Positions 35,431-40,694 of a DNA stretch of 40,694 nucleotides are shown piece after piece (position 1 is the stretch's first letter; every line of letters begins with the position of its first letter). Below the pieces are notes generated by a model. The model did not search any database. It was given only the letters and a program-made list of their open reading frames with translations, and had not been told where the DNA came from. The stretch is from contig JAJYZI010000005.1 in assembly GCA_021800105.1 (NCBI GenBank), positions 1-40,694 on the forward strand, read 5' to 3'. The position numbers were made by a program, and so were the translations under genes. Source of the DNA: Thermoplasmata archaeon (lineage in GTDB: Archaea > Thermoplasmatota > Thermoplasmata > Thermoplasmatales > Thermoplasmataceae).

Positions 35431-35541
35431 GGTATGCGGGAAAGTTTTCATCTGTTTCATAACGCTTTGGAGGATAACGATGATGCTAGCTTTAGAAAGG
35501 ATAAATCTATAATTGAAGTAGAATATTACGGCTAAGCATAG

Positions 35542-36177
35542 ATGATCTGGAGAAAAAAGGAACAGCAGGATCCCGCACCGACTGGCCCCCGAAAGGTCTG
35601 CCCGCTTTGCCTGCGTGCCTATTATGACGATTCAATATATTGCAGAATGGACGGGCAGAAACTGCAACTCGAAGCCACAACGCAGCAGGACCAAAAGAAG
35701 CAAATAGAATGCCCTAACTGTGGCTTTACATTATCAACTCCAAGGCAAAGGTGCCCTATCTGCGGTCATATTTTCAGTAACTTCAGGAACACAAATGAGA
35801 CAATCTTCATCAACCTGATACCGGAAGCAGGACTGCCAATCAAGATTGATAAATTTCCTTATTCATTCGGCAGAAAGGACGTGATCAGAAACCACTATTC
35901 AGAATATGTAAACATCGAGCACATTATCTTCAGTCTTGAAAATGGCCATTTCTATATACGCGACAAGAAATCTTTGAATGGATCTTCTCTCAATGGACAT
36001 GCCATTGGGGGGAAGAGATTTGAGAACCTCAAGAAACTGCAGCTGGCAGACGGCGACGAGGTCGGCCTCGCGCTCGACTCGAAGGGAATCTCACTTATAA
36101 GATTCAAGGTTGAGATTCCACAGATGGTATTGTCAAAGGATACTGGATCAATGATCCCGAGGGAGGAGGCACGATGA
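35542..36177 (+). CDS. Zinc-ribbon plus FHA domain protein
   Basis: CxxC pairs (CPLC..YC, CPNC, CPIC) then FHA-like FSFGRKDVIRNHYSEYVNIEHIIFSLENGHFYIRDKKSLNGSSLNGHAIGG...LADGDEVGLA. Confidence 0.88.
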   Translation: MIWRKKEQQDPAPTGPRKVCPLCLRAYYDDSIYCRMDGQKLQLEATTQQDQKKQIECPNCGFTLSTPRQRCPICGHIFSNFRNTNETIFINLIPEAGLPIKIDKFPYSFGRKDVIRNHYSEYVNIEHIIFSLENGHFYIRDKKSLNGSSLNGHAIGGKRFENLKKLQLADGDEVGLALDSKGISLIRFKVEIPQMVLSKDTGSMIPREEAR

Positions 36178-38792
36178 GGAAGTTCCCATTTGAAGTCTAC
36201 CTCTTCAGCGCAATGTCCGGTATTGCCCTCTTCCTGATACTGGTAAATACGCTGCAGCAAGTTGTTTTGAAAACAGATTACTTTTCCCATTACTATCAGA
36301 TACTTCTATTCCTGGCGGACTTCATACTTGGAATTATTGTGGTTATTGTGGCTTTTGCCAATAAAGGCTACAAGACAACTACAACAGCTATCGATTACAA
36401 GCCGTTGAACAGGGCAATTTTTATTCTCTTTGCATTTGTGTCTTCGCTAATTGCCTTCTTGTTTATAGCTGCAAAGATTGGGCTTGTTTACGAAATACCA
36501 CTTTTTGCCGCCCTCGTGCCGACTTATGTTTTCGATCTTCCATCTAATCTAGGAGACAAGGACGCTAGGGACTCCTACCTGAAGAAGAATTTGTGGTTTG
36601 TCATAACCGCAATAGCAATTTTCATAATTGCCGTTATACTTGATCTTTTAAATCTTCTCTTTGCATGGAATGGGGTTTTAATCCTTGCCGCCTTTTCAAT
36701 ACTGCTTCCAACCAGGGAAACAAGAAAGGAGAATGAGATCAAAGTCCTGACTTTCCGCTCGCTTTCGCCCATTGCGGCCGCTTTCCTGATTTACAGTGCC
36801 AGTCTCTTCTACCTAGACACAAGAGCTTCCGGTTATGTATTCTTTTACGCGATTACCCTTATTGCTATCGGCATAATGGTTATGGTATTCAGGATACGCT
36901 ACAGATCGGTCCTTACAGGGATTATAAATGCATTTCTTGTAGGGCTTAGTTTTCTGGGTTTCTACATTATATACCGTAACTTCAGCCAGGACATTGTCTG
37001 GTTGACCCTGCTTCTTCTCTTCACATTCTGGGTCTTCGGATATAATTATAAAGTGTTCCGCGAGGGTTCCAGAAATATCTCAACGTCATTCGACCTTATG
37101 GGGAAAGGGAAATACATCGTCCCATCAATAGGTATCATAATTACTATTGGACTTGCATTTGGGAACATTGGTGCGCTCTCGAATGATTTCAATGTATTCT
37201 GGAATGCAATGATCGGGAGTGGAACAACGAGCATCTCTCAATCGCTTGCAAAGATCGATGCAACCCCCGTCTACCTAGGCTTATCCGCCTTAGGCATATT
37301 TTTCACTGTCACGCTGGGGTACAGGAAATTCAACCTTTTCCTTTTCGCCGTGATACTTATAATGTTCTTCTTAGCAGTTGTTTACCTGCTCTCGATAAAG
37401 ATTGCAAGCGTCTGGACCCCAAGTTCAACTGAGGTTAGTTCACTTTCAATAATAATTACTGCACTTATTTTCTATGAGCCTGTCTACCGGTTCGCTCGTT
37501 CATACACGTCCAGGATACCATCTGGATTATCCATTGGAAAGAGGACTGGTGCAGCCAGATTCATTCATGGAAGGTATGATGTCTCAATGATCCCTTCAAA
37601 GAAGAACAACCCTGATTTTCTAGGCGCTGGTGGTTTCGCTTATGTATTCAGGGGCAAGGATGTCCTCAAGAATATACCTGTGGTGCTGAAGGTCCCAAGG
37701 ATCTTCGACGAGGAATCAAAGAGTGAACTTGAGAAGCGGGAAAGCATAAAGGAATCCATAAAACAGATAGAAGCTGAAAGTCGGGTGCTTTCCGAAATAT
37801 CTTTTCCCGGAGTGGTTTCATATATCGAGTATTTCAGGGAAGGAGGGCAGCATTTTCTCGTCGAGGAATATGCAGACGGCAGGAATCTTAATTCCTATCT
37901 TGCAACAAAGGGAAAGGAAGGCACAAAATTCAGCGAAGAGGAACTGATCAGGATATCTCTTAACCTGCTCTTCTCTGTTAACTATCTCCACCTCCATGAG
38001 ATTTTCCACAGGGACCTGAATCCCGGTAATATTGTTCTCACAAAGAAAATACCAAAGATAATTGATTTCGGCACATCAAAGCACCTTGCAAGCAAGGTCT
38101 CTGCATCATTCTTCACGCACAGTGACAGGATAGGTGTACCATGCTATCACCCACCGGAATTGGACTCTGAGGACAAGATAAAGGCTTCCTCAACGTATGA
38201 TACGTATTCTATCGGAGCACTGATGTGCTCCATGATCACTGGCAAATTTCTTGACAACGATGAAATGAGGGAAAAATACGGGGTGGAGTTTATAACCAGA
38301 AAATATCTGGATGCAGAGGTAAAACCTTTCTGCAACCCAAAGATTTTTGACATAATAGTTAAAGCGACTAGCCTCAAACCCAGCGAGCGCTACCAGTCAG
38401 CTTTCCACTTTATTGCAGATTTCCTATCGTTATCAGGGGAATATATCGTAACGGATATGGGGTATATTTGCAAGCTCGACCAGGATCATAAATTCCAGGT
38501 TTACAGCCATAAGGACATCCCAGCTTCAATATTTGGCGACTATATGATACATGATTATGTGATAAACATAACGGAACGCGGAAAGGATGAAAGATCCAGG
38601 ATCGGTACAATTGAATATGATTCCCGTACGGAGGGATATGTTGTCTACCCTTATGGAAAAAGGGTTGTTTACCAGAAAAAAGCAGGATCACTCTCACAGA
38701 AAGTCATAAGGAGCCTGCTAAACGAGGGCGACATCATATCTCTGAGGCCTGATCTCAGGGAAGGCACATTCTCATATTACAGGGTGAACTGA
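36174..38792 (+). CDS. Polytopic membrane Ser/Thr protein kinase with divergent FHA-like C-terminus
   Basis: About 440 N-terminal residues with roughly 12 TM segments; kinase domain LGAGGFAYVFRG, VVLKVP, HRDLNPGNIV, DFGTSKH, GVPCYHPPE, YDTYSIGALMCSMITGK; C-terminal beta-rich segment. Confidence 0.93.
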   Translation: MRKFPFEVYLFSAMSGIALFLILVNTLQQVVLKTDYFSHYYQILLFLADFILGIIVVIVAFANKGYKTTTTAIDYKPLNRAIFILFAFVSSLIAFLFIAAKIGLVYEIPLFAALVPTYVFDLPSNLGDKDARDSYLKKNLWFVITAIAIFIIAVILDLLNLLFAWNGVLILAAFSILLPTRETRKENEIKVLTFRSLSPIAAAFLIYSASLFYLDTRASGYVFFYAITLIAIGIMVMVFRIRYRSVLTGIINAFLVGLSFLGFYIIYRNFSQDIVWLTLLLLFTFWVFGYNYKVFREGSRNISTSFDLMGKGKYIVPSIGIIITIGLAFGNIGALSNDFNVFWNAMIGSGTTSISQSLAKIDATPVYLGLSALGIFFTVTLGYRKFNLFLFAVILIMFFLAVVYLLSIKIASVWTPSSTEVSSLSIIITALIFYEPVYRFARSYTSRIPSGLSIGKRTGAARFIHGRYDVSMIPSKKNNPDFLGAGGFAYVFRGKDVLKNIPVVLKVPRIFDEESKSELEKRESIKESIKQIEAESRVLSEISFPGVVSYIEYFREGGQHFLVEEYADGRNLNSYLATKGKEGTKFSEEELIRISLNLLFSVNYLHLHEIFHRDLNPGNIVLTKKIPKIIDFGTSKHLASKVSASFFTHSDRIGVPCYHPPELDSEDKIKASSTYDTYSIGALMCSMITGKFLDNDEMREKYGVEFITRKYLDAEVKPFCNPKIFDIIVKATSLKPSERYQSAFHFIADFLSLSGEYIVTDMGYICKLDQDHKFQVYSHKDIPASIFGDYMIHDYVINITERGKDERSRIGTIEYDSRTEGYVVYPYGKRVVYQKKAGSLSQKVIRSLLNEGDIISLRPDLREGTFSYYRVN

Positions 38793-38793
38793 A

Positions 38794-39609
38794 ATGCAGA
38801 TAGATAATGCAATGATGACCATAAGAGGGAAGACGCGTGAGAGAGATGAGGATGCGATATGCCTGATATTCTCCTCGCTTGAGAGTGAAACCGAAAAGCA
38901 TGGTGAATTTTTCTGTGCTCTTGCAGACGGCATGGGTGGCATGGATCGAGGGGAACTTGCAAGCAAGCTTTCGGTAAACGAGGCAAGGCACATAGGCACC
39001 TCAATGCTCAGCAGGGACATGTCTCCACTGGAGATTGTAAACTCCATCAAGAGGATATTCCAGAACGCTAATGACGCACTCATCACGTATGCAAGCAGAA
39101 ACGGAAATGCCAGGATGGGTACTACGCTGGTAGTAGCTTATTCAAACGGATCCGAAATCTACGTCGGAAACGTTGGCGATAGCCGCCTGTACATTTTCAA
39201 TTCAGGCAAACGAAGTTTCAGGACAGCGGATCATTCTTATGTCCAGCTCCTTAACGACCAGGGTATCATAACAGAAGAGGAAGCCAAGATACATCCGAGA
39301 AAAAACGAAATGACAAGGGCAATCGGCCTTGAAGAGGATCCGACGCCTGACATTTACAGGCTCCGTCTTTTCCGCGGTGACTCCATCCTGCTGTGCTGCG
39401 ACGGTTTATGGGAAGCATACGACGACAGGATCATGGCTAACACGCTGATGTCTACAATGTCCTGTCACGATTCTCTGGAAAGTATGATACTCAGGGCAAA
39501 CGAAGTCGATGGTTCCGATAACATATCTGGCATTCTTGTCAGGCCTGTTGTCGATACGACGGAAGAGGCCGCCTTGAAAAGGCCTACCAAGTCAATCACC
39601 CAGGATTGA
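38794..39609 (+). CDS. PP2C-family Ser/Thr protein phosphatase
   Basis: RERDEDA, ALADGMGGMDRGELAS, GNARMGTTLVVAY, VGNVGDSRLYIF, DHSYVQLLNDQG, LLCCDGLWEAYDD, GSDNISGILV. Confidence 0.95.
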   Translation: MQIDNAMMTIRGKTRERDEDAICLIFSSLESETEKHGEFFCALADGMGGMDRGELASKLSVNEARHIGTSMLSRDMSPLEIVNSIKRIFQNANDALITYASRNGNARMGTTLVVAYSNGSEIYVGNVGDSRLYIFNSGKRSFRTADHSYVQLLNDQGIITEEEAKIHPRKNEMTRAIGLEEDPTPDIYRLRLFRGDSILLCCDGLWEAYDDRIMANTLMSTMSCHDSLESMILRANEVDGSDNISGILVRPVVDTTEEAALKRPTKSITQD

Positions 39610-39718
39610 ATCCTGCAGTCATTAGAAGATGGGACTTTCTATAGCTAAGAACATAAGCAAATGACTGTATTCAAGTTGAATTTCTTCCTCCTGAAATGGT
39701 TCGATCCTAAACTCTTCA

Positions 39719-39961
39719 TTATTTTAGGCACATAACTTCGAACCTGTTCCTGGGTTTACGCACTGTTGTTGTATTATCCTTTATGATCTCCTTTCCCATG
39801 TATTCAGATCGCTGCTTAACATTGCCCGTTTCCTTGTCTCTGTAACTCGTAACACTGTAAATATAGACATTGTTCCCCCTTACAAGTCTCCTGATGTATG
39901 TCACTGTAGTAGTAATCCCACTACATAGTATAAGTAACTTTCTGTGATCAGATCCAGTCAA
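39719..39961 (-). pseudogene. Transposase N-terminal fragment (IS4/IS1634-like)
   Basis: RGNNVYIYSVTSYRDKETGNVKQRSEYMGKEI resembles the N-terminal segment of IS4/IS1634-type transposases; the frame stops after FEVMCLK with no catalytic domain. Confidence 0.5.
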
Positions 39962-40345
39962 ATGCTATGTTCACGGAAAAATGTAGTGTTATTCAAGGGC
40001 AAGGATAGGATTCAAGTGATCTCGGTAGGATTATGGGTCGATTATGTGATAAATGAAAAAATTCCAGAAACCACAGGTGTTTTTAGCTATCAATTCCCTC
40101 TTTATGTTAAATTCGTAATACTTACTGATCCAAGACTAATTTCACATTATACATCATATCTTCTAAATGTAAGTGCCCTCAATTTACCCTCTCCACTACC
40201 ATATTCTCCACAACCGACTGGAACACAATTTTCAGTTCCCTTATGCTTTCAGCACCCTAGCTCCGGCTATCCAATTGCAATAGCAAATATTTTTATGATT
40301 TGTTTTGCTGTGATTGCTATATCACAATTAATACTGAGTAGGTGA
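39944..40345 (+). CDS. Hypothetical protein with C-terminal TM segment
   Basis: Open frame of 133 codons ending in PIAIANIFMICFAVIAISQLILS; true start uncertain (it overlaps the transposase fragment antisense). Confidence 0.35.
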   Translation: MIRSSQMLCSRKNVVLFKGKDRIQVISVGLWVDYVINEKIPETTGVFSYQFPLYVKFVILTDPRLISHYTSYLLNVSALNLPSPLPYSPQPTGTQFSVPLCFQHPSSGYPIAIANIFMICFAVIAISQLILSR

Positions 40346-40409
40346 AGAGACGAGAAAGATACATTTTGAGGGGCTGAGGATAAATAAACGTGATAAGAAG
40401 AGGATAGTT

Positions 40410-40694
40410 ATGGCACTTGTCATAGTTGCTTCAATTCTAACGGTGATCTTATACTTTACATACAATCATTCACCGCCGGTAACCGTTAAGTCTACCACAC
40501 AACTGCCTAATCCAGAGGGACTCAATTACACTGTAATATTTAACAAATATTTTCAAGTTAGCAACGGTACAAATAATTCATATGCCTTTAGCTTCGGGAG
40601 CTACCATTCAATAAGACTGGAAATTTGTTCAAATAACACGTCGATTTGCACTGGGCTTATTTCACCAAACAAAATCGTCTATGACTTTATTTCA
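40410..40694 (+). CDS. Membrane-anchored, sequon-rich secreted protein, truncated by window edge
   Basis: Reading from ATG 40410: MALVIVASILTVILYFTYNHSPPVTVKSTTQLPNPEGLNYTVIFNKYFQVSNGTNNSYAFSFGSYHSIRLEICSNNTSICTGLISPNKIVYDFIS; open to the end of the window. Confidence 0.6.
   Translation, partial: MALVIVASILTVILYFTYNHSPPVTVKSTTQLPNPEGLNYTVIFNKYFQVSNGTNNSYAFSFGSYHSIRLEICSNNTSICTGLISPNKIVYDFIS

Follow-up and report, generated by a model that had tools for sequence, protein, structure and literature searches.

Introduction

Most of the molecular detail available on Ser/Thr signalling in archaea comes from the Sulfolobales, whose genes for reader, writers, and eraser do not lie together and whose membrane input is poorly understood. 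In these organisms, the FHA protein ArnA works with kinases and a phosphatase (PMC6509490, PMC5300886, PMC10470591), with ArnC and ArnD described as a TPR-kinase and a bare kinase, respectively, and PP2A as the phosphatase (PMC5300886, PMC7472852). FHA genes of actinobacteria also lie in clusters with genes for Ser/Thr kinases and a phosphatase (PMC1262709). The pknB-pstP-fha locus of M. tuberculosis likewise groups kinase, FHA, and PP2C genes, with neighbours that differ from those at the locus described here. In the present locus, a putative reader, writer, and eraser come from one conserved operon, which also offers a membrane input domain that looks dedicated and matches no known family, along with one particular threonine on which experiments can focus. 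We consider it reasonably probable that this operon encodes a membrane-anchored, reversible phosphothreonine switch. With four purified pieces, it would open signal-to-reader phosphorelay in euryarchaeal acidophiles to testing.

A conserved FHA-kinase-PP2C operon

The window analyzed here, a 40,694-nt stretch of DNA from an uncultured acid-loving archaeon, carries in tandem, all on the plus strand, an FHA gene (35542–36177; 211 aa), a kinase gene (36174–38792; 872 aa), and a PP2C gene (38794–39609; 271 aa). All species carrying this cassette are uncultured. The initial annotation had proposed this tandem as a reader, writer, and eraser; the three ORFs lie where it placed them, each has a Pfam match, and their sequences support these putative roles. 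The two junctions that it described are also present, i.e., an ATGA overlap between the FHA and kinase genes (36174–36177) and a TGA-A-ATG junction between the kinase and PP2C genes (38790–38796). The ATGA overlap is confined to the source genus, with FHA-kinase gaps of up to ~55 nt in other genera, and the kinase and PP2C genes lie close together (overlapping or ≤~14 nt apart) in all loci except L035, in which an ambiguous base breaks the PP2C frame. A promoter-like element, GAAAGGATAAATCTATAATTGAAGTAGAATATTACGGCTAAGCATAG (35495–35541, plus strand), which may correspond to an archaeal BRE/TATA, is found immediately 5′ of the FHA gene. It is near-identical in four members of the genus, in which the surrounding intergenic DNA has diverged, and its core GATAAATCTATAAT is retained in a fifth. 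Such an element was detected only 5′ of the first gene, the second and third having Shine-Dalgarno-like motifs instead: the GGAGG-like AGGGAGGAGG (36160–36169, plus strand), inside the FHA gene and 5′ of the kinase start, and GGTGA 5′ of the PP2C start.

The order of the cassette recurs across homologous loci, with the FHA gene found in 15 and the PP2C gene in 18 of 19 kinase loci. The remaining loci are interrupted by contig ends, and wherever enough DNA is available both genes are present (FHA 15/15, PP2C 18/18). This order is kept with kinases as divergent as ~30% identity, and dN/dS values of 0.002–0.08 wherever computable indicate strong purifying selection on all three genes. Taken together, recurrence and low dN/dS indicate that the arrangement is not due to chance.

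A survey of Thermoplasmata synteny qualified the initial impression that such an operon is unusual. The 14-transmembrane (TM) domain of the kinase was found in 18/18 genomes from five related genera and in 0/59 other genomes of the family, and was invariably fused to the cassette kinase. Genomes carrying the cassette form a single clade in an RpoB tree (support 98), throughout which the gene order is kept. However, soluble kinase, FHA, and PP2C genes are adjacent, as here, in three other Thermoplasmata families (f5, f12, and f27), without the membrane domain; the kinases of f12 and f27 carry a canonical FHA at their C-terminus, and that of f5 is preceded by a double-FHA protein. The operon type is therefore not unique, whereas the 14-TM kinase is, being seen only in the five-genus clade. 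A kinase tree gave no answer on kinase origin.

Two features of the gene neighbourhood were considered and rejected. A 107-aa ORFan, A7, accompanies the kinase in 14/14 genomes and occurs in ≤1/47 others, but cassette genomes form one clade and A7 stays with the A8 gene when the cassette is elsewhere, so that it was not retained as a cassette component. A link to DNA replication via PolD/PolB neighbours was likewise discarded, as upstream neighbours vary by genus and A8 is near universal.

The putative reader resembles ArnA

The 211-aa protein includes an FHA domain (35863–36069, plus strand; PF00498, 6.6e-7, 30.1 bits vs. a cut-off of 20.7), preceded by two zinc ribbons (35599–35763; Pfam double zinc ribbon, 8.6e-5) with the patterns CxxC...CxxD (residues 20–37) and CxxC...CxxC (residues 57–74). 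The metal ligands are invariant in 13/13 FHA proteins, as are R111, H127, and N146-G147 of the FHA domain. This retention of the Arg, His, and Asn-Gly of the phosphothreonine site supports a reader role, whereas the replacement of the Ser of SxxH, which normally helps to hold the phosphate, by Asn124, also in 13/13 proteins, counts against the proposed switch.

Among the closest solved relatives by sequence is ArnA (5a8i and 8s05; FHA similarity at E 1e-5), which likewise combines a zinc ribbon and an FHA domain in a thermoacidophilic archaeon with reversible Ser/Thr phosphorylation. The two proteins and their contexts differ in several respects: ArnA has one four-Cys ribbon, whereas the cassette protein has two, the first with Asp as fourth ligand; the ArnA partner is the vWA protein ArnB, whereas there is no vWA gene at this locus; and the Arn phosphatase is a PP2A rather than a PP2C.

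An unusual but conserved kinase

Residues 482–740 of the 872-aa protein (37617–38393, plus strand) form a Hanks-type kinase domain (PF00069, 1.1e-33, 117 bits vs. a cut-off of 31.7). The score against PknB_PASTA_kin is far lower than its cut-off (95.9 vs. 450 bits); no PASTA repeats were found in the kinase, and 14 TM segments precede the kinase domain. Across 17/17 kinases, HRDLN and GVPCY replace the HRDLK and GTxxY motifs: the catalytic loop reads HRDLNPGN (38007–38030), with N616 for the usual Lys, and the P+1 loop reads GVPC (38133–38144) for GTxx, with V655 and C657 invariant. The lysine and threonine typical of Ser/Thr specificity, which contact each other in PKA, are thus both absent, with N616 and V655 in their place, and catalysis could be weak or unusual.

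On this basis, the protein might be a catalytically compromised kinase serving chiefly as a membrane scaffold. We regard this as very improbable, since the kinases aligned show no variation in the G-loop, Lys506, Glu535, the HRD Asp, DFG, or PPE (17/17 for K506, E535, D614, and D631), the kinase domain is the slowest-evolving part, and a conserved PP2C would be an odd neighbour for a dead kinase. A kinase of sister genus g2 (L081:5839-7053) also has HRDLNPKN. Like the cassette kinase, this 404-aa protein combines a kinase with a HRDLNP loop and then an FHA fold, but it has no TM domain, carries a canonical FHA motif, and has no PP2C adjacent.

An FHA-like fold was also predicted at the C-terminus of the cassette kinase, a feature absent from the initial annotation. 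It spans residues 755–872 (38436–38789, plus strand), and is apparent from the predicted fold only: an AF2 model (pLDDT 87) yielded FHA domains for all of the top 35 PDB matches in Foldseek (prob up to 1.00), whereas the region had no Pfam FHA match and hhalign profile–profile comparison with FHA, including the canonical kinase-fused FHA of g2, returned nothing. The phosphothreonine-binding FHA motif (GR/SxxH/NG) is missing from this region in 17/17 kinases. The domain therefore probably no longer binds phosphothreonine and acts as a structural or docking module.

A 14-helix membrane domain of an undescribed type

The N-terminal membrane domain (residues 1–434; 36174–37475, plus strand) had initially been described as transporter-like, with ~12 TM segments. 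Hydropathy averaged over 17 homologues is better read as ~14, with which the positive-inside alternation is clean, and we propose that both ends of the domain are cytoplasmic. The actinobacterial kinase sensor is a single TM segment plus extracellular repeats, whereas the cassette kinase has 14 TM segments and short outer loops. Residues 1–452 matched no Pfam family, and the membrane domain matched neither PDB sequences nor PDB folds, although the fold test is weak because the predicted model is poor (pLDDT 60). No known transporter or sensor family was thus found in these searches, and on sequence grounds the 14-helix domain is of an undescribed type. Fold matches of the model to mixed transporters and GPCRs were discarded (probability ≤0.25), and three phylum-wide TM matches (E 2e-5 to 2e-4) were treated as hydrophobic chance; the two of these that were inspected are short membrane proteins without a kinase. 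A search for internal duplication of the domain found none.

Across the N-terminal part of the protein, most of the conservation falls in TM13-14 and in the juxtamembrane segment on the cytoplasmic side. The juxtamembrane linker (residues 435–480; 37476–37613, plus strand) is as conserved as the catalytic domain, with a mean identity of 0.71 for residues 434–480 vs. 0.40 for TM segments. At mid-helix positions of the membrane domain, no buried charged residue is conserved, and any buried charged or polar residues that are conserved lie at helix ends. These patterns bear on the possibility that the domain is a transporter or channel, with the kinase reporting on or gating transport. Fourteen TM segments is a common size for transporters, but the lack of a family or fold match (with the poor model noted above), the lack of conserved buried charged or polar residues, and the position of conserved residues towards the cytoplasmic coupling end make this improbable. 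Instead, we favor the phosphothreonine switch, in which the membrane part may act as a sensor, its state being passed to the kinase via TM13-14 and the juxtamembrane linker.

A threonine-bearing phosphatase tail and the proposed switch

The PP2C phosphatase (PF00481, 3.6e-13, 50.2 bits vs. a cut-off of 20.3) has its metal-binding residues D20, D45, D203, and D242 conserved in 15/15 homologues. It ends in a C-terminal tail (39544–39606, plus strand) which, along with its basic-basic-Pro-Thr motif, is absent from the three non-cassette PP2Cs aligned (f3 and f5). Within this tail, a KRPT motif (39577–39588; consensus [KR][KR][PQ]T) includes Thr265, which is invariant in 15/15 cassette PP2Cs, as is the basic character of residue 263. 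Thr265 is the sole invariant threonine found beyond the catalytic cores, and represents a candidate phospho-site and FHA docking site. No invariant +3 residue follows it among the PP2Cs aligned, which counts against a single conserved FHA recognizing it. This tail had not been mentioned in the initial annotation.

From these genes, their conserved order, their active-site residues, and the tail threonine, we infer the enzymatic activities, phospho-sites, FHA partner, signal, and output of the switch as follows. The kinase would phosphorylate Ser/Thr sites, probably including Thr265 in the tail of the co-encoded PP2C; the zinc-ribbon FHA protein would bind the resulting phosphothreonine(s) and, as a possible direct effector, convey the output, possibly by acting on DNA or transcription, by analogy with ArnA of Sulfolobales; and the PP2C would reset the switch. 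A more specific and rather unlikely version is a self-contained circuit, in which the kinase marks Thr265 of its own phosphatase, the FHA protein docks there and ties the eraser to the reader and membrane, and the kinase FHA-like domain, emptied of phosphothreonine binding, is a signalling or docking lid.

Alternatively, the three genes may be co-expressed without forming a closed circuit, kinase and PP2C acting on many proteins (e.g., a vWA protein, as in Arn), one of which is read by the FHA protein in place of its operon neighbours. In Sulfolobales, ArnA reads a separate vWA partner, which is phosphorylated by kinases whose genes lie elsewhere (PMC6509490, PMC5300886); in the source genome, a vWA gene adjoins a PP2C-like gene, and the single invariant threonine outside the catalytic cores also fits this explanation. 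Although it has some plausibility, we hold it to be doubtful: no vWA gene was found in any cassette neighbourhood examined, and the clade-specific PP2C tail, in which basic-basic-Pro-Thr is invariant, points to one or more partners within the operon.

A conserved FHA, kinase and PP2C cassette in Thermoplasmata

The window, which is the entire contig C98 of a 1.38 Mb, 70%-complete genome, carries three plus-strand ORFs in tandem: an FHA gene (35542–36177, 211 aa; Pfam FHA plus zinc ribbons), a kinase gene (36174–38792, 872 aa; Pfam Pkinase at residues 482–740), and a PP2C gene (38794–39609, 271 aa; Pfam PP2C). The initial annotation described the ORFs correctly, together with their ATGA overlap and TGA-A-ATG junction; its reading of them as an unusual operon with a transporter-like kinase is only partly supported. 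We lean towards viewing the cassette as a membrane-anchored reversible phosphothreonine switch.

Full-length kinase homologues were identified in 14 of 61 relatives (18 named loci), with all named homologues deriving from uncultured Thermoplasmata/Thermoplasmatales metagenome-assembled genomes. The synteny survey suggested initially bore out the gene order, with FHA upstream and PP2C downstream of the kinase in every locus with sufficient flanking DNA. Homologue clusters included 19 kinases, 18 PP2Cs, and 15 FHAs, the absent ones corresponding to contig ends, and kinase identity to the window's copy extended down to about 30%. Between genus members, dN/dS was 0.03–0.08 for the FHA gene and 0.007–0.03 for PP2C; within the kinase gene, the TM part gave 0.05–0.07, the core 0.002 (a single comparison), and the C-terminal domain 0.03–0.04, some comparisons in the set being saturated at synonymous sites.

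The FHA-kinase ATGA overlap is specific to this genus, up to about 55 nt separating the genes elsewhere, while the kinase-PP2C junction is an overlap or a gap within about 14 nt in all loci but one. In this exception (L035:8699–9403), the PP2C frame has an ambiguous base and opens about 48 residues late; faulty assembly, not decay of the gene, is the probable cause. SD-like motifs precede both the kinase and PP2C starts, and the FHA start is preceded by a 47-bp promoter-like element that four genus members share almost unchanged amid diverged surroundings.

PP2C was detected in 63 of 400 class genomes, and the neighbourhoods of 27 PP2C-bearing loci were surveyed. Across these, PP2Cs from family f12 and several from f27 adjoin a kinase with a C-terminal FHA, f5 PP2Cs adjoin a kinase (accompanied by a double-FHA protein gene in the one f5 locus read completely), and f3 PP2Cs are located away from kinases. 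The f12/f27 arrangement comprises a soluble kinase with a canonical C-terminal FHA and an adjoining PP2C, in often overlapping genes (L255, L256, L257, L259). The kinase/FHA/PP2C theme is thus recurrent in Thermoplasmata, and what is new is its 14-TM version. FHA, kinase, and phosphatase genes are clustered in M. tuberculosis, as already noted in 2005 (PMC1262709); no published description of this cassette was found in searches of open-access literature.

The kinase combines a lineage-specific membrane domain with a catalytic core altered at two positions

Hydropathy averaged over 17 homologues gave 14 peaks ahead of residue 440, revising the earlier estimate of about 12 TM segments, and alternating basic residues place both the N-terminus and the kinase in the cytoplasm in a sequence-based topology. 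The AlphaFold model, although weak (pLDDT 60), includes long helices in matching number. A transporter-like character found no backing: Pfam yielded no credible family in any of 16 members, a PDB sequence search no match, and a PDB fold search with the same weak model no credible match. Since conservation peaks in TM13–TM14 and in the juxtamembrane segment on the cytoplasmic side, and no charged residue is conserved mid-membrane across the homologue alignment (helix ends excepted), the alignment favours a putative sensor or scaffold more than a transporter.

Within the family, this domain occurs in 18/18 genomes of genera g1, g3, g10, g14, and g15 and in 0/59 others, one extra match being a 65-aa frame; nothing else credible was found beyond these genera in the sampled 400 class and 390 phylum genomes. 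As RpoB unites the five genera in one clade (support 98), a single gain followed by complete retention is the simplest history.

The G-loop, K506, E535, HRD, DFG, and PPE are invariant across 17/17 kinases, as are Asn616 at the HRDLK lysine position and Val655 at the P+1 threonine position. These two positions touch each other in PKA, and the double change may therefore alter substrate choice or rate. A kinase of sister genus g2 also displays HRDLNPKN, but retains GT. A second kinase family, with frames of about 1230–1265 aa and an N-terminal kinase domain (HRDIKPEN), is scattered through the order (L017, L018, L019, L028, L029, L031, L032).

Residues 755–872 gave nothing convincing against Pfam and no similarity to FHA by profile comparison. 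AlphaFold nevertheless produced a confident all-beta model (pLDDT 87), for which each of the best 35 Foldseek PDB matches was an FHA domain, with APLF ranking first (E 1e-3, probability 1.00, TM 0.67 by target). The GR/SxxH/NG motif is found in 0/17 of these domains, and the modelled structure is thus an FHA-like fold in which phosphothreonine binding has probably been lost. Degeneration of an ancestral kinase-fused FHA is plausible, since f12, f27, and g2 kinases have a canonical FHA at the corresponding position.

Reader and phosphatase features

The FHA protein harbours two zinc ribbons N-terminal to the FHA domain (CxxC...CxxD and CxxC...CxxC) with invariant ligands. In the FHA domain, the Arg, His, and Asn-Gly are invariant, and the SxxH serine is replaced by Asn124 in 13/13. 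Its closest solved sequence relatives are structures of ArnA, the zinc-ribbon FHA protein of Sulfolobales (5a8i and also 8s05, whose deposited name is "Conserved protein" and which we read as ArnA). ArnA binds its phosphorylated vWA partner ArnB (PMC6509490); repression of DNA-damage-response genes has been reported for S. islandicus ArnA-ArnB, and nucleic-acid binding suggested for the ArnA Zn ribbon (PMC10470591). Elsewhere in the window's genome (L080:3740–6974, contig C69), a tandem pair of vWA and PP2C-like genes is convergent with a second kinase-like gene encoding N-terminal hydrophobic segments, a set that resembles vWA/PP2C/kinase triads.

Metal ligands are invariant in cassette PP2Cs, and 15/15 have a C-terminal tail after the catalytic domain, in which Thr265 is the sole invariant residue. 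It is preceded by Pro or Gln, then by an upstream basic residue (15/15) and a second one (13/15). The aligned f3 and f5 PP2Cs terminate ahead of this region, and, relative to these, the tail appears to be kept only alongside the membrane kinase and FHA reader. This threonine in a basophilic context, a candidate phosphorylation site, offers the most specific new lead. The +3 residue is not conserved among cassette PP2Cs, which speaks against a single fixed FHA motif at this predicted site.

Genomic neighbourhood

A 107-aa acidic ORFan starting with MDC is located 3′ of PP2C in most loci (L034:9553–9891 and 10 others; contig C47, 608–937, in the window's genome). It has no Pfam match and is distributed across exactly the 14 cassette genomes, with one borderline match elsewhere; this co-occurrence may be a clade effect. 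The window's last 127 bp are identical to the first 127 bp of C47, and the two contigs therefore abut. The PP2C-to-ORFan gap is about 65 bp in L036, with about 1.5 kb inserted in the window's genome (window 39615–40694 plus L246:1–562). A PolD small-subunit gene and a near-universal 113-aa neighbour are found downstream of most cassettes (L034:10305–11732 and equivalents), and in g10, g14, and g15 the upstream flank encodes a family B DNA polymerase.
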